Positions 17,949 through 36,777 of a stretch of DNA of 39,395 nt are shown piece after piece; the stretch's first letter is position 1, and each line of letters opens with the position of its first letter. The stretch lies in assembly GCA_023131225.1 (NCBI GenBank), contig JAGLZW010000003.1, forward strand, positions 1-39,395, given 5' to 3'. The stretch is from Candidatus Bathyarchaeota archaeon. GTDB lineage: Archaea; Thermoproteota; Bathyarchaeia; Bathyarchaeales; SOJC01. The notes beneath the pieces are model-generated. The model searched no databases. It saw nothing but the letters and a program-made list of their open reading frames with translations, and was not told where the DNA came from. The translations under genes and the position numbers were made by a program.

Positions 17949-17983
17949 AAAGGTCAAAGTGATTTCTAAAATTGTGATTTCTT

Positions 17984-19532: not shown

Positions 19533-19564
19533 CTACTAAGCGTGCTTGAGATAATGCTTAGTAG
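19533..19564. repeat. Inverted repeat with 9-bp arms in divergent intergenic region
   Basis: CTACTAAGC (19533-19541) and GCTTAGTAG (19556-19564) are exact reverse complements with a 14-nt spacer. It lies between the zinc-ribbon gene (minus) and acetoacetyl-CoA synthetase (plus). It could be a regulator site or a hairpin in an upstream transcript. No T-run follows, so it is not an obvious terminator. Confidence 0.5.
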
Positions 19565-19707
19565 GCGCTGCGCTCGAAATCAAGGCACAACATGATTATC
19601 CGCCCGTGTGGGAACAATTATAGTTCATAGCACTAATATCGCAAACCTTATTTTAGTAGTAACATAGTTTCTCGTGAAAACTTCATGCAGAGAGGTTAGC
19701 AAAAAAG

Positions 19708-21690: not shown

Positions 21691-21714
21691 AAAGAACTGA
21701 ACTATAAAACACAA

Positions 21715-22320
21715 TTAGGATTCACTAATTGTGACCAAGATTTCCCCTAGGGTTACAGCTGCGCCTTCAGAAACCTTAACCTCTTTAACAATTCCGCTCA
21801 CTTGCGAAACAATTTCATTTTCCATTTTCATAGACTCCAAAACAAGCAAAACGTCTCCCACATACACTCGGTCTCCTGTCTTAACTCTGAGTAGAACAAC
21901 CTTTCCAGGCATGCAGGCGGATATAACCCTCTTATCCAAGGTCTGAGTTTCAACAATTTTCTTTTCAACTGCAGGCAAATTGAGTCTAAATGCTTGCGAA
22001 ATAACTTGGCTCTTGTTTTTCATCTGCGCTGAGTAAGAGACGCCATCAACCTTAACAGTAATAGACGTACCTACGCCATCACTATTTAATTCCACTCTGT
22101 ACGGCTTTCCACCAACATTTATGAAAAAAGGTTTACCGTAACAGATGTCCTCTGAAAGTTCCACCCAGATTGACTTGCCGTCAATCTCCACTTCAAAGGT
22201 GGTTTCCTTTCCTAAATCTGGCAATTTGACCTTGCATGGTTTTTTGTCGATAAAAAGATTGTATTCGGTCAATTTAGACGCTCCACCTAAAGGCTTCAAA
22301 TTCACAATATCTTTTTCCAA
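21715..22320 (-). CDS. Biotin carboxyl carrier protein of an acyl-CoA carboxylase
   Basis: 201 residues. The C-terminal ~75 residues form a biotinyl domain with the biotin attachment motif ESMKMENEI. The N-terminal ~125 residues are a beta-rich extension (three related ITVKVDG/FEVEIDG-type strands) longer than in bacterial AccB and closer to stand-alone carriers of archaeal acyl-CoA carboxylases. It shuttles carboxybiotin between biotin carboxylase and a carboxyltransferase. The start is TTG 22320: TGGAGGG sits 4-5 nt upstream, inside the end of the biotin carboxylase gene, and the genes overlap by 47 nt, so translation is coupled. No carboxyltransferase gene is visible, so acetyl-CoA, propionyl-CoA and pyruvate carboxylase roles all remain open. 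Confidence 0.88.
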   Translation of the reverse strand: MEKDIVNLKPLGGASKLTEYNLFIDKKPCKVKLPDLGKETTFEVEIDGKSIWVELSEDICYGKPFFINVGGKPYRVELNSDGVGTSITVKVDGVSYSAQMKNKSQVISQAFRLNLPAVEKKIVETQTLDKRVISACMPGKVVLLRVKTGDRVYVGDVLLVLESMKMENEIVSQVSGIVKEVKVSEGAAVTLGEILVTISES

Positions 22321-23800
22321 AAACCCTCCATTGCGACTTCGTAGCGATTTTTCTGTTAGGGATAACAGCGCGCACAGATTTGCTTTTATGCATTGAGAAG
22401 TTTAGGGCCACAACTAAAGCTGCAACATCTTCACTTTCTACCTCTCTTTCTAATATGAAACTTCCTATTCTGTCTTTCATGAAACCAGTGTGGATTTGAC
22501 CTTCAATAAAATGTTTATCATCCATGATTTTTTTATGCAGTGGGATAGTAGTTTCAATACCTTCGATTTGATATTCTGCGAGAGCGTTTCTCATGCGTTG
22601 TATGGCTTCTTTGCGACTTCTGTCCCAAACAGCCAGTTTGGCTACTAATGAATCGTAGAACACGGGTATGGTGTAGCCAGCGTACAGGGCGCTATCCACT
22701 CTGACTCCAGGTCCTCCAGGTACACGATATCTTGTTATAGTGCCAGGGCAGGGCGAGAAATCTTTATTCGGGTCTTCTGCGTTGATTCTGCAGTTTATAG
22801 CATGTCCACTGATTGTGATATCTTCTTGTTTGTATTGCAGCGGTTCTCCAGCGGCTATTCGAATCTGTTCCTTAACTATGTCAATCCCTGAAACCATCTC
22901 GGTTATAAGGTGTTCAACTTGCAAGCGCGTGTTCATTTCCAAAAAGTAGAATTTGTCTTCTTTATCAACTAGAAACTCAACGGTTCCAGCGTTGGTGTAG
23001 TTTACAGCTTTCGCTGCCTGTGTAGCTGCTTCTCCCATGGTTTTTCGCAGTTTGTCGGTCATCATGGGAGATGGTGTTTCCTCTATGAGTTTTTGGTACT
23101 TCCTCTGGATGGAGCATTCTCGTTCGCCGATATGTACAACGTTGCCCTTTTTGTCGGCGATTATCTGAAATTCAATGTGACTTGGATTCGCCAACCGCTT
23201 TTCAATGTAGACATGGGAGCTTCCAAAGGAAGCCTTTGCCTCTAACAGTGCTAGTTCAAAGGCTTTGTCGACGTCACGTTTGTGATTAACAACGCGCATG
23301 CCTCGTCCTCCTCCGCCATAAACCGCCTTTATGATTATTGGGTAACCGAGTTTTTCAGCGGCTTCTTCTGCCTCGCTTACGCTTTTAACTGTGTCCATAG
23401 TTCCTGGGATGACTTGCAATCCAGCTTTTTCCATTGTCTTGCGTGCCACAACTTTGTTGCCCATTTTCTCCAGAACTTCGCTGGTTGGTCCGATGAATTC
23501 TATGTTGTTTCTTTCGCAAGCTTCAGCGAATCTGGGTATCTGAGCCAAGAAGCCGTATCCAGGATGAATAGCTTCGGACGCGGATTTTTTGGCGGTCTGC
23601 ATGATTTTTTCGATGTTTAAATAGCTTTGGGCTGGTTGTGCGGATCCAATGAAGTGGGGTTCGTCGGCAAGTTTTACATGAAGCGATTCCTTGTCAGCTT
23701 CAGAATATACTCCTACGGTTCTGATGCTGAGTTCTTTGCCTGCTCTAATTATGCGCAGTGCAATCTCGGATCGATTGGCGATTAAGATCTTTTTGAACAT
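22274..23800 (-). CDS. accC: Biotin carboxylase subunit
   Basis: 508 residues of the ATP-grasp biotin carboxylase family. It begins FKKILIANRSEIALRIIRA, and has the ATP lid GGGGRGMR, the bicarbonate/ADP motif ERECSIQRKYQKLIEETPSP, and the catalytic MNTRLQVEH followed by LITEMVSGID. It carboxylates biotin on the downstream carrier protein with ATP and bicarbonate. Small changes at usually fixed places are seen: FLAQIPRFA for the common FLxENxxFA, and EHLITE for EHPVTE. All catalytic residues remain. The C-terminus runs about 50 residues past the minimal domain. I start at ATG 23800, with AAGGAG 8 nt upstream and a TATA box at 23833-23842. Forms an operon with the carrier gene. Confidence 0.92.
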   Translation of the reverse strand: MFKKILIANRSEIALRIIRAGKELSIRTVGVYSEADKESLHVKLADEPHFIGSAQPAQSYLNIEKIMQTAKKSASEAIHPGYGFLAQIPRFAEACERNNIEFIGPTSEVLEKMGNKVVARKTMEKAGLQVIPGTMDTVKSVSEAEEAAEKLGYPIIIKAVYGGGGRGMRVVNHKRDVDKAFELALLEAKASFGSSHVYIEKRLANPSHIEFQIIADKKGNVVHIGERECSIQRKYQKLIEETPSPMMTDKLRKTMGEAATQAAKAVNYTNAGTVEFLVDKEDKFYFLEMNTRLQVEHLITEMVSGIDIVKEQIRIAAGEPLQYKQEDITISGHAINCRINAEDPNKDFSPCPGTITRYRVPGGPGVRVDSALYAGYTIPVFYDSLVAKLAVWDRSRKEAIQRMRNALAEYQIEGIETTIPLHKKIMDDKHFIEGQIHTGFMKDRIGSFILEREVESEDVAALVVALNFSMHKSKSVRAVIPNRKIATKSQWRVFGKRYCEFEAFRWSV

Positions 23801-23832
23801 TCCTGTTTCTCCTTCTCTTCTTTGCGTGTGTG

Positions 23833-23842
23833 CATAAAATAT
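23833..23842 (-). promoter_or_regulatory. TATA box of the biotin carboxylase-carrier operon
   Basis: On the minus strand this reads ATTTTATGC-like sequence, centred about 37 nt before ATG 23800. A start near 23811 leaves an 11-nt leader with AAGGAG in it. Confidence 0.45.
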
Positions 23843-23965
23843 GTTATGCCATTGCATGCGTAATTCTCATGGAAAAGTTTGACAGAATAGTTATTTTCGA
23901 TGAATTGTGGGCAACGCAACTTTCGGCAAAGGACTGGGTTGAGTGTTAAAAGCTGTTTTGAAACG

Positions 23966-24106
23966 TTATTGAATTGATCTCGCAACCGCAAAGGCTTGAT
24001 CGAGAGTCATCTGAACGCGAGAAGCAAATCGAATTAAGCCAACTTCCTTGGTTAATAACCGTGTTGGAGAAACAATCAGATCGTTTCGAAAGCGCTCCAT
24101 ATACAT
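23966..24106 (-). CDS. Doubtful 46-residue ORF
   Basis: An ATG-started frame on the minus strand (MYMERFRNDLIVSPTRLLT ... AFAVARSIQ). The residue mix looks coding-like and it lies just beyond the tRNA-like hairpin, but there is no ribosome site, and the frame runs on upstream through that hairpin, a common source of false ORFs. It could be a relic of a larger gene. I recognise no family. Confidence 0.2.
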   Translation of the reverse strand: MYMERFRNDLIVSPTRLLTKEVGLIRFASRVQMTLDQAFAVARSIQ

Positions 24107-24129
24107 ACATGCTAGGAGTTTGTTAAAAA

Positions 24130-24176
24130 GTGCGGGGGGATTTGAACCATCCCCACAGTAGAGATATCCCCTGCAC
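24130..24176 (-). other. tRNA 3'-end-like hairpin (possible tRNA relic or att remnant)
   Basis: On the minus strand a T-arm-like hairpin reads GGGGAT-GGTTCAA-ATCCCC followed by CCGCAC and then TTTTT. The outer arms GTGC...GCAC also pair, so the 47 nt look like an acceptor stem plus T arm without D or anticodon arms. The 3' part resembles the end of the tRNA-Leu at 33191-33278 (GGTTCAAATCCC then CCCGCAC), with about 4 nt missing. It is not a functional tRNA as it stands. Confidence 0.35.
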
Positions 24177-24179
24177 AAC

Positions 24180-24695
24180 CTCTTTTTTCTGTACAGCTCT
24201 TCTAACAACTGAGTTCGGCTCGTCTATCCCTTTTTTTTGCGAGCGCACAGTGAGAATGTATGGAAAGCAGTGGTCTTTTGTAAAAAAAATGTAACAAAAC
24301 CGTCAACACCATTGGAAAAAAACGTTGTAAAAACATAGGCATTTCTGGAAAAAAAGCATGAAAACCCCGGAAAATTTTTTTCCTGAAATAAGCTTTAGAT
24401 AAATAAGCTTGAGGTATTAGTGAAAAATTGTGTTCTCAACGTCGAAAAACGGTTTTCACAACCTGAAACAGAAAAGTCGAACTATCGATTTCAAAAAACG
24501 ATTTCTAAAATTTAAGTTGCAAAAAGTGAGATACAACTTGCAAAAAAAGTTGTTCCTTCTAACGGTGAATTTCAAAATCCTAGGGAGATCATACAGGAAA
24601 AATCAACGTACCAATGTTGGTGCGCATATGATTATTTTGCTCTAGAAGTAGGTTACATAAATGTTATATGTTAACTAGATACATATATCGCAAAT
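24180..24695. other. A-rich non-coding stretch upstream of the surface-protein gene
   Basis: About 500 bp with no convincing gene. It contains many A-runs of 5-8, a near-palindrome GGAAAATTTTTTTCC at about 24370-24384, and two AAGCTT hexamers flanking tagataaat near 24390-24410. A lysine-rich 71-codon frame (24430-24645) is explained by the A-runs. The last part carries the promoter of the downstream gene: TTATATG at 24664-24670, about 30 nt before the ATG, which suggests a leaderless message. Confidence 0.45.
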
Positions 24696-27600
24696 ATGTA
24701 TCTAAAAATCACGAAATACAATGCAATTTCAGTACTAGTGATATCCATTCTATTGACAATTACATTGCTTTCACCAATCATCAACGTTACTCATAGTCCA
24801 AGTATTAAAGCTAATGAAACTGCAGAGCAAACGAATGGTTTTAATGAGCCAAACTCAAATTCTCATCCAACTTTTCAAGATAGTGTGCGAGATGCATTCC
24901 CAAATTTCCGCGCCATAAGCAGCAACTCTACATTTGTCAACGTTACGCCAGACTATATTACGGCTAACTTGAACCAAAATTTCACAATCGACGTAATTAT
25001 TTCAAATGTATCTGACCTCTCCGGCTTTGATATACAGTTTAGCTGGGATCCATCGCTCCTAGAGTATGTGAGTCACGTGGCAAAAGTCCCGGTAGAGACC
25101 TACCCAGATGGCGTACTCTGCCAGCCGATTCTTCCACTCATGGACGATGTTGACGCCACTGCAGGAACATACTGGGCGGCCTTCGCCACCCTTGGAGGGC
25201 CATCCTTCAACGGTACGGGCATAGCGTTCGAAATGACCTTTCACGTAATAGGGTCTGGTAGTTGTTTACTAGAAATAACCAGCTGTGACTTAGCAAACAA
25301 ATATGGCCAAACGATAACTCATTCCATTCAAAACGGCTACTTCAATACAGATGTGCAGATGCTTCCAACAGACATGCCCGTCGTCTATGTTGATCCCCAA
25401 AACATTTCTGCGTCCCCTGGAGAAACTTTCACTATCAGTGTGAAGATTTTCAATCTGACAGATACCATCTACGCGTGCTATGACGAATGGGAACCGGGAC
25501 AGCCATTGCCTCCGCCTGACTCACTGTATGTTTATACTCTTGGCAACCTTTACGCCTTAGACATCCAGTTGAGCTGGGATCCAACGATTCTAGAGCATGT
25601 AGATCACGCTGTAAAGATTCCAGTTGAAACTTATCCTGATGGGGTTCTTCACGAACCAATACAACATGTTATGGATTATGTTGATCCGAGCGCGGGAACT
25701 TACTGGCTGGCTAAATCATCCCTAGGAGAAGTACCAGGATTCAATTGTCAGGATGCGAACGCGACTGTGTTCACAATGACCTTCAACGTGACGAGACGTG
25801 GGAAATGTACCCTAAATCTAACTTCAGTTGACCTTGCTGCTGATCCAGCCATGCTGGTAAGTGGCACAATCAATAAGCTTGCAATCCCACACTGGGTGAG
25901 AGACGGCCAGTTCAGCTATGGCGTAGCTGGATTGCCGGTGGCGAATTTTGAGTATTACCCGCTAAGCCCTGTAGTAAACGAAGCTGTAACTTTCGATGCA
26001 TCAGACAGTTACGATTCTGACGGTTACATCATCCTCTACGTATGGGACTTTGGAGATGGAACCATACAAAATACAACAGACCCCATCACATATCATTCTT
26101 ACACTACACCTAGCTCATACGATGTAACACTACAGGTAATCGATGATGAAGGGTATAGCGGATTTGCATCCGCGTCAATCAGTGTCAGCGGACCTATGGC
26201 ATACATTCGAACATATATCCCACATGAATGGGTTGGCGGCGGCTCGGCGATGGGTTGGCATGCAGATGACAGTTGCTGGTCTTATGCTTTGCCCTTCAGC
26301 TTCCCATTCTACGGTACCTATTACAGTACACTCTACATTTCCAGCAACGGGCTGATATCATTCACATACGATACCAGCTTAGGAAACAGCATCGAAGCAC
26401 TGGCAGGCAAAGTTGCAATTGCTCCAGCGTGGGACGATTGGGTAACGGATGGTTCCTACGACATTTATATTTGGCAAAATTCGACATGCATAGGAATCAG
26501 ATGGTACGTTAGACATTATAGTAGCTATGAAATCGCAAACTTCGAGGCGCTACTCTTCAGCAACGGCGTAATACAATTCAATTACGAATATAACAGCGGT
26601 GACATATCGGCAACTATAGGTATATCAAACGGTTACAGCGAAATCCTCGCCGAAGACGCGACAAACCTAAACTATATAAACAGCATCCTCTTTACGCCTT
26701 TCTGGTTAGAACATGAACTTTTAGTCTATCTTTCAGCACCAAACCATGTTCTGCCAGGTGAAACAGCCATTCTAAATGCAACCGTTCATAATCTTGGTCT
26801 ATCCAACGAAACCAATGTAGAACTCTATCTATTAATTAACGGCACTGTTCAAGCGAATATTACACTGGCTGAATTAACGAGCAACTCATACCAAACCCTT
26901 GACTATGTCTGGACTCCAGCTTTGGAAGGAACATATAACGTAACAACATACACACCTCCGGTCCCCAACGAAAACATCACAGCAAACAACATCGCAACAA
27001 AAATGGTCAATGTGCGGCAAGTTGCTGGATATGTTCTTGTTGATCAAACCCACGGAACAGATGGTATTCATAGCTACAGCATTTGGGTGGCGAACCTTAC
27101 CGAAGGAGGATACGTAGTTGAAACTCATACTTTAGGTTCCATTACTTCTAATGTACTAGAAGGTTACGACGTATTTGTTATCCCTCAAGCCCACGACTAT
27201 TATTCCTCAGATGAGCTATCTGCGATACAAGATTTCGTGCAAAATGGTGGGGGGCTCCTAGTGATAGGCGATGATGCACCATATGTTTATACAGATCTCA
27301 CAAGCTTCGCCGGCATTACATGGATCTCAGGTGGATATGGCGGATATACCAGTGACATTACGCTCCATGCAGTAACTGACGGAGTAAACATGGCGTACTT
27401 TGATTCACCCGGTATGATTTATGTTACTTATCCAGCTATAGACCTTATTCGAGACTACTACGGAAACGTTATGCTTGCAGTTTCAGAGGTAGGCACTGGA
27501 AAGGTCATAGGGATCGCTGACGAACACTCGATCAACGACTACTATATTGGGTTTGCAGACAACCTCCGTCTCGCCGACAATATGATCAACTGGATTGGGG

Positions 27601-29402
27601 TAAGATACCCGCATGATCTTGCCGTTTCGGTGAGAGCACTCTCACATCTTCAACCTGGCGATTCAACAATTCTCGAGGCAACCGTTTACAACAGCGGGTT
27701 GTCGAATGAAACTGATGTAGAACTACAGATGCTGATCAATGGTGACACTGTTGCAAATGTAACGATTCTTAACCTAATAACTGATTCATCCTACACCCTT
27801 TTCTATCCTTGGAGTCCTACAATTGAAGGAACTTACAACGTTACAGCCTATGCGGTACCAGTCCCAGGGGAAACTTACACAGTCAACAACAAAGCGACAA
27901 GCTTTGTGAGAGTTACCGAGCCAATGATCCATCCAGAGGAAGGGCAGTACGCAAATTATCTAATGACTACATATAACCAATCTGGTCAGATGCCAAGTTG
28001 GATGAAATGGAACTTCACATACCAACGCTACGTTACGCCTTACTCAATCAACGTCACTATGGTGCAACAAGACAGTTCAGGTTATAATCAAACCCAATGG
28101 GTGCTCGTAAACACCTTGACCCGCGAAATGACCAGCGGATACTATCCTCTCGAACAATATTACTTCGGATGGATTGAGACAAACATCACAACAGGCTCTA
28201 CGATAAGGCTACTTGACACCAATGGCACAGTTAAAGGAAGCCAACTAATCGAGGCAGCAGGGACCTACATCGACTGCTGGATAGTGGAGATGATCCATTA
28301 TTCCGGATACTACACTTACAATTATACGATGTGGTATGACAAAGCCACAGGTCTATGGATTGGAATGCGGTTTAGCAATGACTACTACCCAAACGAGTAT
28401 AGTATTCTGTTGCTTGTTGACACCAACATCCCCGTTGGCGGAGCATTAAGAATCGAAACAGACAAACCCATGTATACTCGCCTTGAAATCGCAACAATAA
28501 CCACAACCTATGTCATAGGCGACACACCAATCGAAAACGCCACAGTCACAATCGAAGTTAACTACCCCAATGACACGCTATACTTCATCTGGACGGAAAC
28601 AACAGACTCAAACGGTACCGCAACATTTGTCTTTTTCATAGAAGAAAATGCATCCTACGGTACATACACCGCATACGCCTCAGCTTACAAACTTGGCCTA
28701 GACCCAAGAACGGCTACAACAACATTTATCGTAGGCCACCTTGAACCCAACATAGAGATGTGGTTCGAAGGACCGGATGTTGCACTCATTGGCTATGATA
28801 TAATTACAGTTCTTCACGTGCAAAACACTGGAAACGCAACAGCCTACAACGTTACAACAACATTAGACATCCCAAGCAGCCTCACAATCATTTCAGCAAA
28901 CAATACATTCAGCGGCATCATCGACCCGGAACAAGGAGTAATACTGGTCGCCATCTTAACAGCGCCAACACCAAGCAGACACCTTCTAACAGCATCCACC
29001 ACCTACACCAAAGCCGACGGAACACCCATGCCCCCAGTCTACGCCGAGAAAACATTAGTGTATGCATACCATGAAGACTATCCAGTAGACCTCACTGAAA
29101 TGACAATAACAGGCACAACAGAACAAATAATAGTGAACCTTACGATAACAAACTACGGAGACTCACCAATACAAATAACACTAATAGCCTCCGCACAGCA
29201 CGTAACATCCAAACTTATGCTTCGTTCAGTCTACCAAACCATAATCATAAACCCGAACGAAACAATAATAATATCCCTTGCAATCGCCATCCCTTCAACT
29301 GCTCCATCAGGAGAATATATCGTGCTAAGCATCTTAGCAACCCAACTTCCAAGCCAAGACGGCTTCACACTAGTAACGAAACAAGAAACAGTGATCATCT
29401 AA
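24696..29402 (+). CDS. Giant exported multidomain surface protein (cohesin-like, PKD, CARDB, GATase-like)
   Basis: 1568 residues. An N-terminal signal peptide (hydrophobic core ~12-31) leads to a string of beta domains: two related cohesin-like domains (~75-220 and ~228-405, each with FDIQFSWDP/LDIQLSWDP and PVETYPDGVL); a PKD domain (~415-497, DASDSYDSDG, WDFGDG); a beta-sandwich with FPFYG and YISSNGLISF (~500-670); CARDB 1 (~674-775); a GATase1/DUF4350-like domain (~778-969, FVQNGGGLLVIGDD); CARDB 2 (~973-1075); an unknown domain (~1078-1245); an MG2-like domain (~1249-1347); and DUF11/CARDB-like domains to the end. Many N-x-S/T sites suggest glycosylation. No C-terminal membrane anchor and no dockerin is seen, so it is secreted or held by its neighbours. 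Function is probably adhesion or cell-envelope structure. Confidence 0.8.
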   Translation: MYLKITKYNAISVLVISILLTITLLSPIINVTHSPSIKANETAEQTNGFNEPNSNSHPTFQDSVRDAFPNFRAISSNSTFVNVTPDYITANLNQNFTIDVIISNVSDLSGFDIQFSWDPSLLEYVSHVAKVPVETYPDGVLCQPILPLMDDVDATAGTYWAAFATLGGPSFNGTGIAFEMTFHVIGSGSCLLEITSCDLANKYGQTITHSIQNGYFNTDVQMLPTDMPVVYVDPQNISASPGETFTISVKIFNLTDTIYACYDEWEPGQPLPPPDSLYVYTLGNLYALDIQLSWDPTILEHVDHAVKIPVETYPDGVLHEPIQHVMDYVDPSAGTYWLAKSSLGEVPGFNCQDANATVFTMTFNVTRRGKCTLNLTSVDLAADPAMLVSGTINKLAIPHWVRDGQFSYGVAGLPVANFEYYPLSPVVNEAVTFDASDSYDSDGYIILYVWDFGDGTIQNTTDPITYHSYTTPSSYDVTLQVIDDEGYSGFASASISVSGPMAYIRTYIPHEWVGGGSAMGWHADDSCWSYALPFSFPFYGTYYSTLYISSNGLISFTYDTSLGNSIEALAGKVAIAPAWDDWVTDGSYDIYIWQNSTCIGIRWYVRHYSSYEIANFEALLFSNGVIQFNYEYNSGDISATIGISNGYSEILAEDATNLNYINSILFTPFWLEHELLVYLSAPNHVLPGETAILNATVHNLGLSNETNVELYLLINGTVQANITLAELTSNSYQTLDYVWTPALEGTYNVTTYTPPVPNENITANNIATKMVNVRQVAGYVLVDQTHGTDGIHSYSIWVANLTEGGYVVETHTLGSITSNVLEGYDVFVIPQAHDYYSSDELSAIQDFVQNGGGLLVIGDDAPYVYTDLTSFAGITWISGGYGGYTSDITLHAVTDGVNMAYFDSPGMIYVTYPAIDLIRDYYGNVMLAVSEVGTGKVIGIADEHSINDYYIGFADNLRLADNMINWIGVRYPHDLAVSVRALSHLQPGDSTILEATVYNSGLSNETDVELQMLINGDTVANVTILNLITDSSYTLFYPWSPTIEGTYNVTAYAVPVPGETYTVNNKATSFVRVTEPMIHPEEGQYANYLMTTYNQSGQMPSWMKWNFTYQRYVTPYSINVTMVQQDSSGYNQTQWVLVNTLTREMTSGYYPLEQYYFGWIETNITTGSTIRLLDTNGTVKGSQLIEAAGTYIDCWIVEMIHYSGYYTYNYTMWYDKATGLWIGMRFSNDYYPNEYSILLLVDTNIPVGGALRIETDKPMYTRLEIATITTTYVIGDTPIENATVTIEVNYPNDTLYFIWTETTDSNGTATFVFFIEENASYGTYTAYASAYKLGLDPRTATTTFIVGHLEPNIEMWFEGPDVALIGYDIITVLHVQNTGNATAYNVTTTLDIPSSLTIISANNTFSGIIDPEQGVILVAILTAPTPSRHLLTASTTYTKADGTPMPPVYAEKTLVYAYHEDYPVDLTEMTITGTTEQIIVNLTITNYGDSPIQITLIASAQHVTSKLMLRSVYQTIIINPNETIIISLAIAIPSTAPSGEYIVLSILATQLPSQDGFTLVTKQETVII

Positions 29403-29443
29403 AGAGGGCCGCCAATGAAGGACATTACTGACCTTCCTATAAA

Positions 29444-29456
29444 CTCCCCCTTTTTT
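29444..29456 (+). terminator. T-run terminator between the two surface-protein genes
   Basis: TCCCCC directly followed by TTTTTT, about 45 nt past the stop of the first surface gene and 54 nt before the next. Same design as at 17483-17508. Confidence 0.5.
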
Positions 29457-29509
29457 CAAACTTAACTTTGAAATTATCTCAGAAAATTAAATTGAAGTAG
29501 GGAACTTGA

Positions 29510-32161
29510 ATGAGAAAGCTTGATACCACACTACTGATACTCCTCATGTCGCTCTCTTTCTTTTTGGCACCCCAAATAATATTCGCCTCAACATCATTTC
29601 CGCAACATGAAAGAGTTCCAAAAAACGGGTCTACTTCCGAGTTAAGAAGCATTCTAGAAGAAAACATGCAACCATTATCTTCTCTCTCTTTGCTTTTGTC
29701 CTTGGACAAAGACACTTATATTCGACAAGAAACGATAGTTGCGACTGTACAATTCCTCTATGAGCAAACACCGATCCCAAACGCCCAAGTCACTTTAGAA
29801 GTTGACTTTCCCAACGGTACTTCTTGGTTTATATGGGGCAATAACACGGACGAAGACGGATTCTCAAGATTTGACTTTCTCATCGCTCTAACGAATCCTT
29901 CAGGAAAGTATGCAGTGTATTCGACAGCGTATAAAGAAGGATTGGGAACTGCAACTGCAGCAAGAATTTTCACAGTGCGCGCGCCCGATGTTGCTATCAC
30001 GAACGTTGCTCCATCCTCAGATGTTGTAACTCAAGGGGATACAATCACAATAGATGTCGATGTTGCTAATGAAGGAATAACAACTGAAACTTTCACTGTG
30101 GCCCTTTTCGCTGACAAAAACACCATTGTTATCGGAGACGAGATTATCATCGGAAACCAAACAATATTTTCCTTAGCAAATGGAACATCAACAATCGTCA
30201 CCTTTACATGGAATACTACAGGTGTGGCTGAAGGCAATTACACAATAAGCGCCCTAGCCTCCTCGGTGCAGGGCGAAATCGACCTATCCAACAACATTTA
30301 CACTGATGGCATAGTGAAAATAATCCCACCAATGGAGTTGAGAGTGATAATAGATCAAGCTCTAGTCAGTGATAATAGAACTGACATAACCAGTTCACAA
30401 TGGGTTAGTTTTCACGCGAAATGGTTAAATGGATCTGATGTCATCGGCGGCAATATATACGTTAATGAAACAGCCTATAGTACAAACAAAAGCGGATGGA
30501 TAACAATTCACGTGAGCTTCGACACCGTTGTCAAAGGAGTCTGGACGGTGACTGGAGTTTCATGCAACGGTATTGTCACATTCCAACAAACCGTTAGTAA
30601 TCCATGGATCATTTGGGATCGAGTTAAAGTGATCCTCGACACCTTTAACACAAGAATAGATGTGAGCACCAATGCCTCAATAAGATGGACAGGAACATAT
30701 GAATATGATTCGACAAGTTTCTACGAAAGCATTACACTCAATGATACTACATTAAAGGATATCGTTGGAAAATATGGCTTCACGGTTCAAAGCATCCAAG
30801 ATCCGAAATATGATTTGACAGCATTTACATCTAATTCGATATATGTAATTTTTGACAGAGTCTCTATCACTTTGTCTATAGGTGACTCCCACATCGACTT
30901 AGGATCTGAAGCTGCATTAGTCTGGACAGGCGTATACGAATATAACCTAACAATCTTTAGCGGCACCGTAACCCTGAACGATACTAACACAATAAAGACA
31001 ACCGTGGGAAGATACGGGTTCGTAACCGAAAGTATAACAGACCCATTATACGGAATAACAACTTTTACGTCAAATGAAGTCTATTGCATCTGGGATCAAG
31101 TTGATATCATTTTAGCAGTAAACGATAATAGAATTGACCTCGGTAGTACTGCAAATATTACATGGACAAGCATCTATGAATATGATGACATTACTTTTAA
31201 TGGAATGATTGGTCTAAATGGCACTTTAACAAAAAATGTTGTGTGTAAATATGGCTATAAAGTAAAATCAATTTCAGATCCAATTTATGGACTAACTGTT
31301 TTCTCATCCAACGCAGTATTTTGCATATGGGACATGATAAAAATCTTTGAGGGTGGAGTTTCTCGTCCAGTAACTAACATTACACAGACTGAAACAGTTT
31401 GGTTCAAAGCTAAATACGAATATGATGGTGAGCTTTTTGATGAAAGCAAAGGTTTGCTCTTCATAAATAACACTGCTATGACTTGGTCTACGATGAACGA
31501 TAGATGGGAATGTGAATATGATTTTTCTACTATTGGAAATAGAACGTTCCTGGCATCCGGCGTTTTAGACACGCAATATGCTATAGCAAACATAAACGAC
31601 ATTGTTGGACCCTTATCAATCACTTGGGTTGAACTAGTGTATTACATACCTCGACCACCCAGCCCTGGACAACCTATAATCATAAATGCAACAACAGTAA
31701 TCAACGCCACTATAATAATAGACGACATATCTAAGGAATGCATGCTCCTAGTTAGAATAGTTCCTATGCCAGGTCCACCACCAGATGGTTCAAACGGTGT
31801 TGGAAAGCCTTTCGAGATCAATGCAACTGGAAATCCAGCAGGGCAGTTTAGAATTCGGATTTACTATTCGGAAGAACAGCTGGCAGTTCTTGGGATAGAC
31901 GAAAAAACCCTTAAAATACATATTTGGGATGGCAGCCAATGGGTACCCATAATTTCAAGCCATGTCAATCGTGCAAAGAACTACGTTGAAGCGGTTGTCA
32001 ATCACTTCAGCACCTTTGGCCTCATTGGCAGTTATTCTGCTAAACCACCACCTCGATCACTAGAATGGATCGCTTTAATTGTAACAATAGCAGTTGCAGC
32101 TTCAATTTCTCTGATTCTGATCTTAAGAAAAAAAGGTAAAAAACAATCTAGATCCCAGTAA
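29510..32161 (+). CDS. Membrane-anchored surface protein with tandem ~79-residue repeats
   Basis: 883 residues. A signal peptide (~8-26) is followed by an MG2-like domain (~60-160, DKDTYIRQETIV ... PNAQVTLEVDFPNGT) clearly related to residues ~1249-1347 of the upstream protein. A CARDB domain comes next (~165-275, VANEGITTETFTVALF), then three tandem repeats plus a partial fourth of about 79 residues (~367-610; each opens WDRV/FDRV/WDQV and has EYD ... KYGF ... DP.Y.LT.F.SN). A proline-rich stretch follows, and a C-terminal membrane helix (~853-875) with a basic tail (RKKGKKQSR) anchors it. Many glycosylation sites. It sits 107 nt after the first surface gene; the pair probably works together in the cell envelope. 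Confidence 0.8.
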   Translation: MRKLDTTLLILLMSLSFFLAPQIIFASTSFPQHERVPKNGSTSELRSILEENMQPLSSLSLLLSLDKDTYIRQETIVATVQFLYEQTPIPNAQVTLEVDFPNGTSWFIWGNNTDEDGFSRFDFLIALTNPSGKYAVYSTAYKEGLGTATAARIFTVRAPDVAITNVAPSSDVVTQGDTITIDVDVANEGITTETFTVALFADKNTIVIGDEIIIGNQTIFSLANGTSTIVTFTWNTTGVAEGNYTISALASSVQGEIDLSNNIYTDGIVKIIPPMELRVIIDQALVSDNRTDITSSQWVSFHAKWLNGSDVIGGNIYVNETAYSTNKSGWITIHVSFDTVVKGVWTVTGVSCNGIVTFQQTVSNPWIIWDRVKVILDTFNTRIDVSTNASIRWTGTYEYDSTSFYESITLNDTTLKDIVGKYGFTVQSIQDPKYDLTAFTSNSIYVIFDRVSITLSIGDSHIDLGSEAALVWTGVYEYNLTIFSGTVTLNDTNTIKTTVGRYGFVTESITDPLYGITTFTSNEVYCIWDQVDIILAVNDNRIDLGSTANITWTSIYEYDDITFNGMIGLNGTLTKNVVCKYGYKVKSISDPIYGLTVFSSNAVFCIWDMIKIFEGGVSRPVTNITQTETVWFKAKYEYDGELFDESKGLLFINNTAMTWSTMNDRWECEYDFSTIGNRTFLASGVLDTQYAIANINDIVGPLSITWVELVYYIPRPPSPGQPIIINATTVINATIIIDDISKECMLLVRIVPMPGPPPDGSNGVGKPFEINATGNPAGQFRIRIYYSEEQLAVLGIDEKTLKIHIWDGSQWVPIISSHVNRAKNYVEAVVNHFSTFGLIGSYSAKPPPRSLEWIALIVTIAVAASISLILILRKKGKKQSRSQ
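30612..31345 (+). repeat. Tandem coding repeats, ~237-nt period, in the anchored surface protein
   Basis: Successive units begin at about 30612, 30846, 31086 and 31323, spacings 234, 240 and 237 nt. Each starts with a W/F-D-R/Q-V-type motif, has T.YEYD near the middle and KYG/RYG-F, then ends DP.Y.(L/I)T.F.SN. DNA identity is modest, so the duplications are old or under selection to diverge. Confidence 0.75.
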
Positions 32162-32307
32162 TTTTTGAAAATGATTGAAGCAAAAACATTTACTACCTGA
32201 AAACGCGTATGGATGTTAACATTCTAATGACATCGGAGAAAATGTGCCAACAGTGAAATTGTGACTACAAGATATGCTTCTCGAATACACTATGTTATTT
32301 TCACTTC

Positions 32308-33218
32308 CTATGGAGATGCGTTATCTCCAATAGTGTTATAACGCTCAAATCCAGCCTCTCCGAGTTCTTAGCTTTTTCCACAATCTCCACTATTTGAACT
32401 TTGTACTCGTCTGACTTTAAGTCGATTAGGTGTGTGTAGATTTGGATACTTTAACGTGTTTTTGATGTTTCTGTGTCCCATTTTTCTTTGAACGTGAACT
32501 GTGTCCTTAGTTTTGTGGTACAGCATTGTGCTGTAGAAGTGCCTTAAGTCGTATAGTCGAATCTGTTTCAATTCTGGCTTGCCTAATCTCTCAGCTACTT
32601 TGTTTCCAAGTCTGTTCCAGTTTTTTGAAGAGTTTTGGAACAAGGAAATATTTTCTCGTTTAATGATAGATTCTTTGTTGAAACCAATTGCTTCAGTAAG
32701 GCTAAGGTTTCACTTTTCAGCTTTAGGACTCTTGCTTCTCCACCTTTAGCTGTCTCTGGATATCCTAAGCCTTGATGTAAGTCAATATGTTTCAGAGTTA
32801 GATCTTCAACTTCGATAGGTCCAAGTCCGCATTCTTTAATCAGTTTGAAGGCCACTCGATTTCTCGTTTTAGTATAGCTGTCAATCAAGTCAATATCTGA
32901 CTCTAAAGGCAACTTCTTAAGGCTGAAAGCTCTTTGATACTTCGGTCTCTTCCAAGACAAACCATAAAAAACAGCATAGTGATTGTAAGCGTTTACCACA
33001 TTCTCTTTGTAGCCGTTCGACCAATCAACCTTCGCTATGAACTCTTTAATTTCATCGGGATTGTCTAAGTTGACATGTTTCGCCAAGTTCCTAAGTCTCT
33101 TACCAATAGGCTCTATCGTATTTTCTGAATAGCCATCTTTCTTCATTTGCCACAAAACTTGGAATATGCGTCGAGCGTAGGGTGCAGTGATGGTGCGGGG
33201 GGTGGGATTTGAACCCAC
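32308..33218 (-). pseudogene. Decayed tyrosine recombinase (integrase) starting inside tRNA-Leu
   Basis: The pieces read as one archaeal tyrosine integrase. From GTG 33218 come a core-binding SAM-like domain (YSENTIEPIGKRLRNLAKH) and the first catalytic part (FKLIKECGLGPIEVEDL). Frame shifts then break it: one in the A6 run at about 32615-32625, before KNWNRLGNKV; one at about 32425-32435, after the nucleophile region NTLKYPNL; and one at about 32370-32375, before ELGEAGFERYNTIGD, ending at TAG 32308. The first catalytic Arg (usually GxRxxE) is Gly, and the box II His is Tyr (YDLRHFYST). Three shifts plus two lost residues mean true decay, not a sequencing slip. Its 5' end overlaps the 3' end of tRNA-Leu, as in integrases of tRNA-targeting elements. 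Confidence 0.82.
32311..32329. repeat. Inverted repeat near the integrase 3' end
   Basis: TGGAGAT (32311-32317) and ATCTCCA (32323-32329) pair around GCGTT. Outer arms CACTAT (32288-32293) and ATAGTG (32330-32335) also match. It lies between the convergent surface gene and integrase relic and overlaps the last codons of the relic. Possibly a shared terminator hairpin. Confidence 0.4.
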
Positions 33219-33278
33219 GAACGCCTACGCGACAAGGTCCTAAGCCTTGCTCCTTTGACCAGGCTCGGAGACCCCCGC
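33191..33278 (-). tRNA. tRNA-Leu (UAG anticodon), CCA encoded
   Basis: On the minus strand the acceptor GCGGGGG pairs perfectly with CCCCCGC. The D arm is TCC...GGA. The anticodon stem CAAGG/CCTTG holds the loop CTTAGGA, anticodon TAG (reads CUA). A long variable arm, typical of Leu, follows, then the T arm GTGGG-TTCAAAT-CCCAC. Discriminator A and CCA are encoded (33194-33191). A TATA box lies 34 nt upstream of the 5' end. The decayed integrase begins inside its 3' part, so this gene looks like an integration target that has stayed intact. Confidence 0.95.
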
Positions 33279-33306
33279 TTAGACATCCATTCAGAAGATT
33301 GAAACT

Positions 33307-33349
33307 GCATATAAGTGTAAACGTTCATTTTTTCGAAATCCTTTAAAAC
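33307..33349. promoter_or_regulatory. Divergent tRNA promoters
   Basis: Minus strand CTTATATGC (33307-33317, centre 33312) lies 34 nt from the tRNA-Leu 5' end. Plus strand CTTTAAAAC (33341-33349, centre 33345) lies 34 nt from the tRNA-Thr 5' end. The matching spacing supports both and implies a short 5' leader removed by RNase P. Confidence 0.6.
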
Positions 33350-33378
33350 TCTTGAAAGGTAATTGTCTTGACCATTAT

Positions 33379-33452
33379 GCCTCGGTGGCCTAGCTCGGTA
33401 GGGCATCGCCTTGGTAAGGCGGCGGTCGCGGGTTCAAATCCCGCCCGAGGCT
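33379..33452 (+). tRNA. tRNA-Thr (GGU anticodon)
   Basis: Acceptor GCCTCGG pairs with CCGAGGC. The D arm is GCC...GGGC-type. The anticodon stem TCGCC/GGCGG holds the loop TTGGTAA, anticodon GGT. The T arm is GCGGG-TTCAAAT-CCCGC. Discriminator is T; CCA is not encoded. No intron. Confidence 0.95.
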
Positions 33453-33517
33453 TCCGTTTCTGAAATATGTAAGGACCCGCAATTATCTCTATATTTCTCT
33501 GTTCGTGAGTATTAATC

Positions 33518-34090
33518 ATGCGCTCCATAACCGTTCTAACAATCAACGGAGAGCCTGAAAACGAGATAGACCTAGTCAAGATTGTTGAGGATGCAAGAAC
33601 CTATTTTCCGTCGGAAACATGGGACGACATTAAATATCTCGGAAAACTCAGTTTGGAGTACGATGTTAAGATAGCATTAAATAGAGAATCTTTTGCGGCT
33701 TTCCTTTTTGAAAAGCTGATTGAGAGAATTGGGAAAATAAATAGCTCCGATAGATTGATGAGCCTTTTGTTGGGAATAACACTAGATCCAATAGTGGCTG
33801 TGCACTATTTTTTTGATGGAGAAAACTTCAAGAAAACAGTTTATCTTGTTCACGATTATGTGGCTGAAAAGGTTGGAGTTGTGTCTCTTTTCCAAGTGGA
33901 TAATGAGTCTTCAAGAAAAGTAGTGGCTCACGGGTTAGGCCATAACAAAGGTCTACGGCATCATATGGAGCCAATTGACCTCATGTATTCTGAGCTTTTG
34001 CGATTCCCTAGATTGCAAGTAGAAGGGTTTTGTAAGGTTTGCCTGCGTAAGTTGACAGAAGGTCAGACGGGCATGTCAGATTTAAAATAA
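33518..34090 (+). CDS. Metzincin/archaemetzincin-like protein lacking the catalytic Glu (DUF6775-like)
   Basis: 190 residues. Near residue 138 it has HGLGHNKGLRH followed by EPIDLMYSELL. This matches the zinc-metzincin pattern HExxHxxGxxH plus Met-turn, with all three zinc-binding His (138, 142, 148) kept but the catalytic Glu replaced by Gly. A CxxC pair (EGFCKVC) follows near the C-terminus, as in archaemetzincins and archaeal putative metallopeptidases (I think DUF6775, from memory). It may bind zinc without cutting peptides, or use another base. TATA-like CTATATTT at about 33489-33496 lies about 27 nt before the ATG, suggesting a leaderless message. No signal peptide. Function unproven. 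Confidence 0.68.
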   Translation: MRSITVLTINGEPENEIDLVKIVEDARTYFPSETWDDIKYLGKLSLEYDVKIALNRESFAAFLFEKLIERIGKINSSDRLMSLLLGITLDPIVAVHYFFDGENFKKTVYLVHDYVAEKVGVVSLFQVDNESSRKVVAHGLGHNKGLRHHMEPIDLMYSELLRFPRLQVEGFCKVCLRKLTEGQTGMSDLK

Positions 34091-34144
34091 GTACTGCGCC
34101 AACAAAAGGTGTTATAAAGCGAAGAGAGTTGCGTTTTTCCCTTT

Positions 34145-35071
34145 CTAAAAAATTCCATATATCTGATCTGGTGCGAGAATGTCGGGGAATTTTTTTCTTA
34201 ACTTTAAACGAGTGGAATAGCACAGGTGGCATTCGTCAACGTAGCCATCTTCATGTTCAACTTGGTGTTCTCTAACAAGTTCAGTTGGTCCTCCCTTTAG
34301 AATTGGTGCACATATGGGATGCTTTTCTGGATTAAATTTGGCGAACAATTCCGGCAGTGGGGTTTGCTTCATATTTCCTATTGTGATGCCTTGACAGACG
34401 TGGACATAGCCAAAGGGGTCGATATGGACTCGGCTTTGATTAGAAAAGTCTTCGTCTAGGCATTTGCTAAATTCTGTCCAATGCTTTCTTGGTAATCCTT
34501 CTACAAGTTTTTCAACCGCTCGACCTTTGAACAACACTCTACCTTCGACAACTGGCTTGCCTTTCCACTCAATTTCCTTCAAGTATTTCTTTGGGTCTTC
34601 TATGATAATCTTGCCAACCGGTAAGCCAAGGTCCTTGGCGGCTTCGTAAGCGTATTTAGCAAGGTTCTCCTCGGTTTCGCCGTAATGATAGGCGTCGTCG
34701 CTTATGGACAAATCGGAAATGCCAATCTCCGAAATTGGGGTGAGCCATTCTTTTGCATCTTCAACTGACGTAGCCCAGTAAGTGTTTGTGACTATACCAG
34801 TTTTGAAACCATATTCTTTTGCTGTGCGTAAACCCCAAAGCATAGCTTGATAGTAGAGGAAAGGTTCACCGCCCTCAAAATATATCCACTTAATATTCCC
34901 AACCTGTTTTGCCTCTTTGAGAATCTCGCGTATATCTGAAATCTTCATTACACCTTTTGCGTCGGGACAACTGTAAACGAAGCAGTGGTCACACTCGAAA
35001 TTGCATTGATAAGTTTGAAGAAGATGTAACCCAGTTATTGCCATAATTTTATTTTTGGAGGCTTGGAGCAT
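34145..35071 (-). CDS. Radical SAM protein with C-terminal Cys-rich (SPASM-like) region
   Basis: 308 residues. CNFECDHC (Cys23, 27, 30) is the 4Fe-4S cluster motif of radical S-adenosylmethionine enzymes. FEGGEPFLY is the SAM-binding GGE motif, and GFKTGIVTNTYW the next strand of the partial TIM barrel. More cysteines follow in SKCLDEDF, VHVCQGI, PICAPIL and DECHLCY, which could hold auxiliary clusters as in SPASM enzymes that modify peptides or anaerobic sulfatases. No obvious peptide substrate lies next to it. ATG 35071 is used; ATG 35044 (MAITGLHLLQ) is an alternative, neither with a ribosome site. The reaction cannot be assigned. Confidence 0.85.
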   Translation of the reverse strand: MLQASKNKIMAITGLHLLQTYQCNFECDHCFVYSCPDAKGVMKISDIREILKEAKQVGNIKWIYFEGGEPFLYYQAMLWGLRTAKEYGFKTGIVTNTYWATSVEDAKEWLTPISEIGISDLSISDDAYHYGETEENLAKYAYEAAKDLGLPVGKIIIEDPKKYLKEIEWKGKPVVEGRVLFKGRAVEKLVEGLPRKHWTEFSKCLDEDFSNQSRVHIDPFGYVHVCQGITIGNMKQTPLPELFAKFNPEKHPICAPILKGGPTELVREHQVEHEDGYVDECHLCYSTRLKLRKKFPDILAPDQIYGIF

Positions 35072-35184
35072 TTAGCTTTTTTTGTGACGGTAAAACATAG
35101 GTGCTCAGCGGGTTTTTCACTGTTTTAACGAAAAAGCTATAGGGGTTTATACATTAAATTAGACAAGTTCTTTGAAAGAATAAG

Positions 35185-35197
35185 CTCTATATATAAC
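35185..35197 (+). promoter_or_regulatory. TATA box for the coiled-coil protein-rpiA operon
   Basis: CTCTATATATAAC, centred about 35 nt before GTG 35226, with GAGGGG about 7 nt before that start. A leader of about 8-10 nt is predicted to precede translation. Confidence 0.55.
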
Positions 35198-35225
35198 GTG
35201 ACAGCAACATGATGAGGGGACTGTA

Positions 35226-35918
35226 GTGAGCTTTGAAGAGCTCTTGCCATATATTCTAGCCTTAATCGTAACACCAATCGCAGTCCTCATCGTCCTTTAC
35301 GCCACGAAACTTAGAAAAAAGGAAGAAAATTTGGAACTTTCTCCAAAGCTAGAGGCTGCAGAAAGATGGCGCTATAGAGTTCAACGAAGCATCTCTTTGG
35401 GCGACTCAAAAGAGGCCAACGAAAAGCTGAGAACCTTAAGTTTGGAAAGAGAGATTTTAAGCGATGCTATACGCCGTCTTTACGAAGCCCACGCCGAAGG
35501 AAAAATAACTGAAGAGGAGCGCGAACGGCTGGCCAAGAGATACAAATCGAGAATGATGAACGTCAAGGAAGCCATCGCAGAAAGCGAGTCAGTTGTGGCG
35601 CTTCATGAATTAGAGGCAATGCAGGAAGATTTGATTAGCTTATTCGATGAACGATTCGACGAATTAAATGCCAAAATTGAAACTTTACGTTCACGAGTTG
35701 GGTTGGAAACAGAGGAATCAATCATTCCCACCCCTATACCTGTACAAATTGAAGCGAAGCCGCTTGAAAAGGCAGCTGCAAGAAAGACAAAAAAGAAAAA
35801 AACTTCGCGAAAGCCTCAAAAACCTCGTAAGACAGCAGCGGAGGAAAGAATAGAGAAAATCCGCGCAGAGGTGGAAAAAGTTTTAGATCGCCTTGAACAG
35901 ATGGAGGTTGAGACCTAA
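35226..35918 (+). CDS. Membrane-tethered coiled-coil protein, unknown function
   Basis: 230 residues. A single N-terminal membrane helix (~8-27, LPYILALIVTPIAVLIVLY) is followed by a highly charged coiled-coil region (~45-160, heptad-rich ERWRYRVQRSIS ... LEAMQEDLISLFDERFDEL). A proline hinge leads to a very basic stretch (ARKTKKKKTSRKPQKPRK) and a final helix. The layout suggests a cytoplasmic scaffold on the inner face of the membrane that may bind nucleic acid or acidic partners by its basic tail. GTG start at 35226 is supported by GAGGGG and a TATA box. It ends 2 nt before rpiA, so both are one transcript, although no functional link is obvious. Confidence 0.72.
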   Translation: MSFEELLPYILALIVTPIAVLIVLYATKLRKKEENLELSPKLEAAERWRYRVQRSISLGDSKEANEKLRTLSLEREILSDAIRRLYEAHAEGKITEEERERLAKRYKSRMMNVKEAIAESESVVALHELEAMQEDLISLFDERFDELNAKIETLRSRVGLETEESIIPTPIPVQIEAKPLEKAAARKTKKKKTSRKPQKPRKTAAEERIEKIRAEVEKVLDRLEQMEVET

Positions 35919-35920
35919 GT

Positions 35921-36610
35921 TTGGATTGGCGAGAAAACGCCAAAAAGATGGCGGCCATAAACGCAGTTAAACACGTTGAAGACGGGTTTATTGTGGGCTT
36001 AGGAAGTGGGACAACGGTTACTTACGCTTTTCAAGAAATTGGTAAGAGAATACACGAAGAGAAACTGCACATTTATGGGGTTCCTACATCCTATCAAGCC
36101 TTCCTGCTAGCTGTACAAAACAGTATTCCCGTAACCACACTGGACGAACATCACCAACTCGACATAGCAATAGATGGTGCAGACCAAGTGGATGAAAAGC
36201 TTAATATGATTAAAGGCGTAGGCGGGGCGTTAACTCGAGAAAAAATAGTAGCGTCTGCATCAAGAATGAACGTTATCATAGTTGACGAGACAAAGTTGAC
36301 AAGGAAACTGGGCGTTAATCAACCTGTTCCAGTCGAGGTTTTGCCTTTCGCTATGTCCACCATAACAAAAAAATTGCGCATATTGGGTAGCAAACCTATT
36401 CTGCGTGAGGCGGAAAAGAAACTTGGTCCCGTGGTGACGGATAACGGAAATTTCATCGTTGATGTAGATTTCGGGTCAATTGACAACCCAAAAGAGTTGA
36501 ACCGAACGTTGAAAGCTATCCCTGGAATAGTTGAAACCGGTCTGTTCGTAGGGATGGCAGACGTTGTTTATGTTGGTGGAAGAGAAGCTGTTCAGAAGCT
36601 TGAAAAGTAA
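35921..36610 (+). CDS. rpiA: Ribose-5-phosphate isomerase A
   Basis: 229 residues, the normal RpiA length. It interconverts ribose-5-phosphate and ribulose-5-phosphate. The family motifs are all seen: VGLGSGTT (phosphate loop), DGADQVDE (catalytic Asp region), KGVGGALTREKI (active-site Lys and Glu) and VTDNGNFIVDVDF. The start is TTG 35921, 2 nt after the upstream stop, with GGAGGT (35903-35908) 12 nt away; it gives the expected N-terminal helix. ATG 35948 would cut that helix. Supplies pentose phosphate for nucleotide synthesis, which fits with the ribose-1,5-bisphosphate isomerase homologue at 15855-16853 but is not linked by operon. Confidence 0.95.
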   Translation: MDWRENAKKMAAINAVKHVEDGFIVGLGSGTTVTYAFQEIGKRIHEEKLHIYGVPTSYQAFLLAVQNSIPVTTLDEHHQLDIAIDGADQVDEKLNMIKGVGGALTREKIVASASRMNVIIVDETKLTRKLGVNQPVPVEVLPFAMSTITKKLRILGSKPILREAEKKLGPVVTDNGNFIVDVDFGSIDNPKELNRTLKAIPGIVETGLFVGMADVVYVGGREAVQKLEK

Positions 36611-36633
36611 TATAGCTGTATGGCTATAAGGTT

Positions 36634-36777
36634 TTATTGTTTCTTTGATGGTAGGGCTTCTACAGCCTCTCTCGCTTTTGTTCCTGCAAAAGGATTGTTG
36701 ATGATACTATCTAGATAATCTTTCCACAGTTCAAACTTTTCCAATAAGTTTCGATATACCTTCTCGTGAACACGCAA
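36634..36777 (-). CDS. Small ORF (47 residues) directly after and in frame with topA
   Basis: After the TAG stop of topA (36784-36786) the same frame continues: two codons, then TTG 36777 starts a 47-residue frame ending at TAA 36634, only 23 nt before the end of convergent rpiA. The sequence (VHEKVYRNLLEKFELWKDYL ... REAVEALPSKKQ) has the helical, charged look of a real small protein. It could be a separate TTG-started gene or a C-terminal extension of topoisomerase made by amber readthrough. No strong ribosome site precedes the TTG. I recognise no family. Confidence 0.45.
   Translation of the reverse strand: MRVHEKVYRNLLEKFELWKDYLDSIINNPFAGTKAREAVEALPSKKQ

Follow-up and report, generated by a model that had tools for sequence, protein, structure and literature searches.

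A probable decayed tRNA-Leu-targeted integrative element in a Bathyarchaeota genome and the dispersed repeat at its far end

Features of the locus

We analyzed a stretch of 39,395 nucleotides, here called the window, from a Candidatus Bathyarchaeota archaeon (GenBank assembly GCA_023131225.1, contig JAGLZW010000003.1, positions 1 to 39,395 of the forward strand). It holds a block of about 9 kb that a first-pass annotation, made from the letters alone, had taken for a possible decayed integrative element between a tRNA-Leu gene and a tRNA-like relic. All coordinates without a contig name are positions in the whole window; G000 denotes the window's own genome and G001 its closest relative, which belongs to the same genus. 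The tRNA-Leu (TAG) gene lies on the minus strand at 33191-33278 according to ARAGORN and was likewise found with Rfam (RF00005, 33194-33278, 52.1 bits). A second copy of its 3′ end, 19 nt long and also on the minus strand, is present at 24130-24148: positions 24130-24139 (GTGCGGGGGG) are identical to 33193-33202, and positions 24140-24148 (ATTTGAACC) to 33207-33215. The annotation was right that about 4 nt are missing from this copy, the motif TGGG between GTGCGGGGGG and ATTTGAACC being absent. The locus thus has an intact tRNA at one end and a displaced tRNA end in direct orientation at the other, as expected for a tRNA-targeted element.

The relic had been described as a tRNA-like hairpin at 24130-24176. 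Its match to the tRNA-Leu 3′ end, about 19 nt in direct orientation, was borne out; the hairpin was not, the fold of 24130-24180 being no better than that of shuffled sequences (z = -0.92). The remainder belongs to a dispersed repeat, R1, of which about 45 nt (24149-24193) follow the displaced tRNA end. A tRNA or split tRNA at 24130-24240 was ruled out, as neither ARAGORN, intron mode included, nor Rfam gave a tRNA match there.

An integrase gene begins inside tRNA-Leu and reads away from it in a decayed form, just as first annotated. Its N-terminal frame starts at 33218, is open for 207 to 209 aa to about 32595, and matches Phage_integrase in Pfam (2.3e-5) and an integrase family in PHROG (2.7e-6); the C-terminal part (32437-32724) lies in another frame and contains a stop. 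The whole decayed tyrosine integrase spans 32437-33218 on the minus strand. PF00589 matches the window's contig at 32440-32876 only and not at 24130; the integrase is not split by the attachment (att) site. Integrase and tRNA-Leu adjoin on the same strand, which is the pNOB8-type arrangement.

The 209-aa frame is 74% identical to an intact homologue in the genome G009 with an open frame of 348 aa. That homologue is a tyrosine recombinase (PF00589, 2.5e-20) and scores below every NCBIfam cut-off, the best match being archaeal XerA (88.1 bits against a cut-off of 220). On contig C11 of G009, an R1 copy with a Leu-like tail (15261-15323) and the integrase (24029-25009), which adjoins CCCACCCCCCGCAC, stand in the same order as in the window. 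In the genome G002, an integrase fragment with 84% identity over 51 residues lies beside an intact tRNA-Leu. These three cases suggest that the integrase clade of the window, G009, and G002 targets tRNA-Leu. Among viral contigs, seven candidate stretches for integrase relatives were obtained, none of which was confirmed.

Between the integrase and the displaced tRNA end lie the two giant surface-protein genes that had been annotated, both on the plus strand: one of 1568 aa with PKD, CARDB, and cohesin-like domains (24696-29402), and one of 883 aa with CARDB domains (29510-32161). Replication genes were not seen in the island. For neither protein was a full-length counterpart found in 20 relatives. 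The best matches in G001 cover 188 aa at 47% identity (1568-aa protein) and 99 aa at 53% (883-aa protein). For the larger protein, the highest-scoring other match spans 189 aa at 76% and lies in another part of the window's own genome; the longest among the top matches extends over 577 aa at 35% in G007; for the smaller one, the best match is 162 aa at 47% in G004.

Empty site in the closest relative

On contig C5 of G001, the counterparts of window positions 16074-24139 (96.2%) and 33193-36710 (97.3%) are contiguous, overlap by 10 bp, and include one intact tRNA-Leu. Positions 1-8054 of this contig correspond to 16074-24139 of the window and end in the tRNA-Leu 3′ end, the empty site being G001:C5 8045-8054. 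The DNA that follows the tRNA-Leu 3′ end in G001 is the sequence found in the window to the left of 24130 (23830-24129, minus strand, the original downstream DNA of the tRNA), and the tRNA and the right flank match at 97%, with homology resuming at 33193. In the window, the aligned blocks are separated by 9,053 bp, corresponding to an inserted element of about 9.05 kb (24140-33192) that is absent from G001. The junctions fall at 24130-24148 (left att) and 33193-33215 (right att, minus strand, the intact tRNA-Leu 3′ end). An empty site in a relative and shared boundaries near 24130 and 33191 had both been predicted by the first-pass annotation, and its proposal of an integrative element between tRNA-Leu and a tRNA relic gains support from them. 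The compositional scan across both edges that it had suggested gave no mark of the island, with a GC fraction of 0.36-0.48 inside and 0.37-0.48 outside.

Two findings had been named in advance as contrary to an insertion. One was surface-protein genes in place in relatives; G001 lacks them at this locus. The other was an occurrence of the hairpin outside the island, and this is partly the case, as 24149-24193 is a dispersed repeat. The repeat family itself seems to mark element ends, and its presence elsewhere therefore strengthens the insertion reading instead of contradicting it.

A comparison of only two genomes leaves the direction of the change ambiguous, and the island might have been lost precisely from G001 rather than inserted in the window's genome. 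We regard such a loss as very improbable: the 20 relatives hold no full-length counterpart of the surface-protein genes, and a displaced, truncated tRNA end such as that at 24130 is what integration leaves behind. A precise loss would, moreover, also be the excision of an integrated element by an integrase and would not affect the main claim. With an empty site in G001 and no full-length counterparts of the surface proteins, the block is most simply a genuine insertion in the window's lineage.

We consider it likely that the block is a decayed integrative element targeted to tRNA-Leu, with R1 as its conserved att-side end. Site-specific recombination catalyzed by its own tyrosine integrase would have placed the element of about 9.05 kb into the 3′ end of tRNA-Leu (TAG). 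By supplying a new tRNA 3′ end (33193-33215) the element would have kept the tRNA intact, while the original 3′ end (24130-24148) would have been pushed 9 kb away. The integrase presumably broke afterwards, which would fix the element unless an integrase acts in trans, and the two surface-protein genes would be its cargo. The other end of the element (24149-24193) is an R1 copy, which we take as the conserved att-side end of a large element family in the class.

R1 is a class-wide repeat

R1 was found by searching positions 23830-24700 in 20 relatives, and a model was built from 18 copies. Diverged or truncated copies (L029, L031, L036:10247, L037:4788, and L040:8354) and plain tRNA genes were left out, and the model, being built on copies that resemble the window's, favors those with a tRNA-like tail. 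The window's copy has an arm, a core, and a tRNA-like tail; it is matched at 24128-24190 on the minus strand (62.1 bits, 4.6e-17) and overlaps with the left att. The element-side arm of the left junction (24149-24193, minus strand) comprises an A-run, a G-run, and the core GGGGATATCTC and is common to copies in G000, G001, and other genomes. In the consensus of 119 distinct copies, the A-run and the G-run are followed by TTGCGGGTGATATCTCCACTGTGGG, then by GGGTTCAAATCCC, a tRNA T-arm, and a variable C-rich tail; the conserved part is formed by the A-run, the G-run, and GCGGGNGATATCTCCACT, after which a tRNA T-arm and 3′ end often follow.

At E values up to 0.01, the model matches all 21 of 21 genomes, with 63 matches in G000, 63 in G001, 55 in G009, and a minimum of 2 in G014, some of them being tRNA 3′ ends only. 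A block-shuffled copy of about 1 Mb yielded 2 matches with at most 9.4 bits, compared to 121 in the real sequence. With a cut-off of 1e-5 and stricter filters, 43 of the 121 genomes from the class contained R1. In a sample of the phylum it was found at 1e-6 in 15 of 200 genomes, two of which are listed outside the class, both with scores near 31 bits. Scanning genome contigs for the exact R1 pattern gave two stretches, both from Candidatus Bathyarchaeota, in a search from which records near the window's genome may be excluded; the same pattern gave no stretch in viral contigs. R1 is depleted within genes: 10 of 125 copies fall inside open reading frames (ORFs) of at least 100 aa, compared to 3702 of 5000 random points. 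A function as structured RNA was rejected (18 rows, 7 weak pairs, -1.33 kcal/mol, no supported covariation, and no Rfam match over threshold). Around one R1 copy, 190 nt are identical in two genera (G002:C54, L011 and L074; G001:C32, L020), which reflects either a recent transfer or a misbinned contig of 3.1 kb. R1 is a real, class-wide repeat, tied to integration scars and, as described below, to presence/absence boundaries. No such repeats or integrons were described for Bathyarchaeia in the literature searched, which comprised titles and abstract openings, with subscription journals mostly outside reach.

R1 tails resemble the 3′ ends of different tRNAs

A T-loop-like motif is present in 36 of the 87 R1 sites of G000 and G001, and many copies end after the core. 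In 9 of these 36 sites, the tail agrees with a tRNA end at p ≤ 0.01 (200 shuffles; seven tRNAs, Phe among them, were not usable). The tRNA set comprised 83 of 85 rows, the two weakest being omitted, with sequences for 65 of the 83. The matches concern different tRNAs, such as Ile at 17 of 17 positions (G001:C24:77213), Leu at 16 of 17 (G001:C24:96677), Cys (G001:C6:4267), and others. The tail of the window's own copy reached only p 0.37 because of its 4-nt gap. In the R1 copy G000:C32:6985, located 6 kb downstream of tRNA-Phe, the tail equals tRNA-Phe at 27 of 28 positions, and in G004 an R1 copy located 3.7 kb away from tRNA-Leu, in the same orientation, bears a 26-nt tail that matches tRNA-Leu perfectly. 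If R1 is the element-side att arm, the adjoining tRNA-Leu ends in the window, in G009:C11, and in G004 and the tRNA-Phe end in G000:C32 would be explained.

The 3.8 kb between tRNA-Leu and the Leu-tailed R1 in G004 (L038, 3930-7820) contain an ORF of 810 aa, by eye a surface protein, whose frame crosses R1. In G009 (L019, 7822-8166), one tRNA-Leu has two R1 copies at a distance of no more than about 1 kb, as if it had been targeted repeatedly. A second type of tail, about GTCCAAGCTAGACGACT, replaces the T-arm at G000:C13:10783, G000:C20:39856, G001:C9:889, and G001:C8:42171.

Gain and loss of DNA at R1 and tRNA ends

Comparison of G000 and G001 revealed three clean cases in which one genome has a single R1 and the other has an additional block between two R1s, the flanks being orthologous on either side. 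The blocks extend from 29645 to 32615 on G001:C32 (2.97 kb), from 5705 to 7695 on G000:C20 (1.99 kb), and from 96677 to 104179 on G001:C24 (7.5 kb). Among 125 alignment-block ends, 14 fell on R1 in both genomes (87 sites; mean 0.05 and maximum 2 in 500 circular shifts), a count based on pieces that were partly chosen because they hold R1. A second set comprised 33 structural differences with a minimum size of 300 bp over 205 kb of aligned sequence and came from larger contigs that were also picked once matches on them were known. Six of the 33 touch R1 (shift mean 0.75, maximum 4), and five have a tRNA 3′ end at a boundary (shift mean 0.29, maximum 4); none of 1000 shifts reached six or five, respectively. 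R1 is therefore enriched at boundaries, yet it is not the main cause of change. Part of a block from G000:C20 recurs beside another R1 in G001:C8, and the moved block is not bounded by R1 at both ends.

At the 3′ end of a tRNA-Gln in G001:C24 (73841-78067, L233), we observed an insertion of 4.15 kb with a 17-bp overlap, the site being empty in G000:C17. An R1 copy is found 77 bp from the far end of this insertion, which itself contains an Ile-tailed R1.

Arrangement of R1 copies along contigs

For the layout counts, 107 of the 126 R1 matches in G000 and G001 were kept after those consisting of a tRNA end only had been dropped. Adjacent copies less than 3 kb apart were co-oriented in 33 of 35 cases (one-sided binomial, 2e-8), those at 3-8 kb in 9 of 12, and those at 8-30 kb in 7 of 15. 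When 20 stretches taken from further genomes in the class were added, 58 of 63 pairs within 8 kb were co-oriented. A chromosome-scale strand bias as the cause was rejected, as the effect fades beyond 8 kb (7 same, 8 opposite at 8-30 kb); contrary to this fading, the widest bin (30-120 kb) showed ratios of 5 to 1 for adjacent and 42 to 10 for all pairs, mostly from two contigs. The 35 co-oriented intervals in G000 and G001 contain one to eight whole ORFs each, and ten of them are single-gene intervals of less than 0.9 kb. On contigs C60 and C74 of G071 the order is R1-gene-R1-gene. Gene direction relative to R1 is unbiased, with 52 to 54 on the arm side and 48 to 58 on the tail side. An ORF of 352 aa at the end of G071:C60, which starts in a tRNA-like frame and looked like an integrase by eye, matched nothing.

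If R1 were an integron-like cassette site, its copies would be expected to form co-oriented series with whole genes, one or a few, in each interval, as found here; a cassette would then consist of one or more genes, the arm, and a tRNA 3′-end tail and enter its cognate tRNA or another R1. We see such a role as possible, though with less than even chances; the R1-bounded presence/absence of blocks and the partial recurrence of a G000:C20 block beside another R1 are in agreement with it. In classical integron cassettes, genes have a preferred direction relative to the site. No such preference was found for R1, the recurring block lacks R1 at one of its ends at least, and no dedicated integrase was shown beside R1 arrays. 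The G009 integrase homologue scores 44.9 bits against integrase_gron, far below the 265 bits set for an integron integrase, and is not an IntI by this cut-off. Finally, R1 lacks the R′ and R″ boxes of attC, judging by eye from the consensus.

R1 as an att arm or as a passive repeat

Several observations weigh against an integrase-made insertion with R1 as the att arm. The window's integrase is a fragment only. Good tRNA tails occur far from their cognate tRNAs: Ile tails, named in a wider tail list by best score and no test, are present on G000:C1 and G001:C24, and tRNA-Ile lies on C19 and C20. R1 copies outnumber integrases in G000, with 63 matches (52 without the tRNA-end-only rows) against 20 PF00589 matches, several of which are fragments, and 27 of the 33 structural differences do not touch R1. 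The crossover spots also differ among the three clean cases, being located at GAGTTTGCGGG in the first, at GGGTGATATCTCC in the second, and at GGGGAGGGTTCAAATC on the T-loop side in the third. A single site-specific recombinase predicts otherwise, and the differing spots are more in line with homologous recombination or with the action of several enzymes.

The variable crossover positions would fit a passive dispersed repeat, with the R1-bounded differences being deletions or exchanges by homologous recombination between direct repeats and only the insertion into tRNA-Leu being site-specific. One R1 in place of two R1s around a block is what a deletion would leave, and R1 shows neither covariation nor a special fold. 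The identical stretches at the three crossovers, however, are only about 11-16 bp long, and a passive repeat explains neither the local co-orientation, with 33 of 35 pairs below 3 kb compared to 7 of 15 at 8-30 kb, nor the tails of different tRNAs. We regard this explanation as plausible, though with less than even chances.

Two points are left unexplained by the att-arm reading alone, namely the Ile- and Leu-tailed copies at a distance from the corresponding tRNAs and the excess of copies over integrases. Both would be accounted for if R1-bounded blocks moved, whether through an integrase in trans or through homologous recombination. Three points are inferred: the insertion at tRNA-Leu was made by this integrase family, R1 forms the attP arm on the integrase side, and blocks bounded by R1 move in the same way.

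Relation to known systems

In tandem accretion, in cis-mobilizable elements, and in the ssrA islands of Dehalococcoides, repeated integration gives rows of att-like direct repeats. R1 copies likewise form such rows, but they occur across the chromosome and end in tails from different tRNAs.

In the pNOB8-type of archaeal integrative elements, as outlined in PMC3293823, the integrase is uninterrupted and lies beside the reconstituted tRNA on the same strand. The window agrees with that outline in an integrase that adjoins the tRNA, shares its strand, and reads away from it, in the tRNA 3′ end duplicated on the far side, and in the empty site of a relative. It differs from it in the broken integrase, in a cargo of two surface-protein genes with no replication genes seen, and in a far end formed by a class-wide repeat. 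As in the tRNA-gene islands treated by Islander (PMC4383910), a regenerated tRNA and a displaced fragment mark both ends; unlike in the islands as presented there, the displaced fragment adjoins a sequence present at about 50 other places of the genome. For Caldiarchaeum, the account in PMC3293823 includes an insertion at tRNA-Thr and scattered tRNA fragments, namely a 5′ fragment with six copies of a 1.8-kb element. R1 differs from the case so described in that 3′ ends of several tRNAs are fused to a short conserved arm in tens of copies.

Integrons and CALIN arrays have been reported in Archaea as well (PMC9668308). R1 sites resemble them in being co-oriented, in having one or a few genes between them, and in exceeding the integrases in number. 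In contrast to the arrays as characterized in that report, R1 is similar to a tRNA T-arm rather than to attC, the integrase is not IntI by the curated cut-off, and gene direction is unbiased. Our most far-reaching proposal is a tentative one that we ourselves rate as rather unlikely: Bathyarchaeia may carry a previously undescribed integron-like system whose R1 site is a short arm plus a mimic of a tRNA 3′ end. Blocks could insert into tRNA genes while leaving these undamaged and could also accumulate end to end along the chromosome, so that a genome would hold tens of sites and rows of co-oriented cassettes; the 9-kb island would be one such block with its integrase still recognizable.

By itself, the island is an ordinary tRNA-targeted element of a known kind, although its cargo of surface proteins is unusual. 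The repeat is of greater interest. Were R1 a shared recombination site, it would account for some of the swapping of surface and metabolic genes in the uncultured archaea of this class, provide a sequence tag for mobile blocks in metagenomes, and represent an integron-like system whose site is tRNA-like. Even as a mere repeat used by homologous recombination, R1 would still mark past tRNA-targeted integrations and genome rearrangement throughout the class.

Neighboring features and other insertions

The right host flank of the island contains a tRNA-Thr at 33379-33452 on the plus strand (ARAGORN and Rfam), which occupies the same position in G001. At window position 36705-36710, G001 carries an insertion of 5.95 kb (G001:C5 11562-17516) with a match to a tyrosine recombinase and with ends that lack R1. 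A further insertion of 6.5 kb is located at a tRNA-Lys in G001:C24 (38934-45557, L231-L232). At its far end the tRNA's 5′ half remains, up to and including the anticodon loop, and the insertion would so represent another type of integration.

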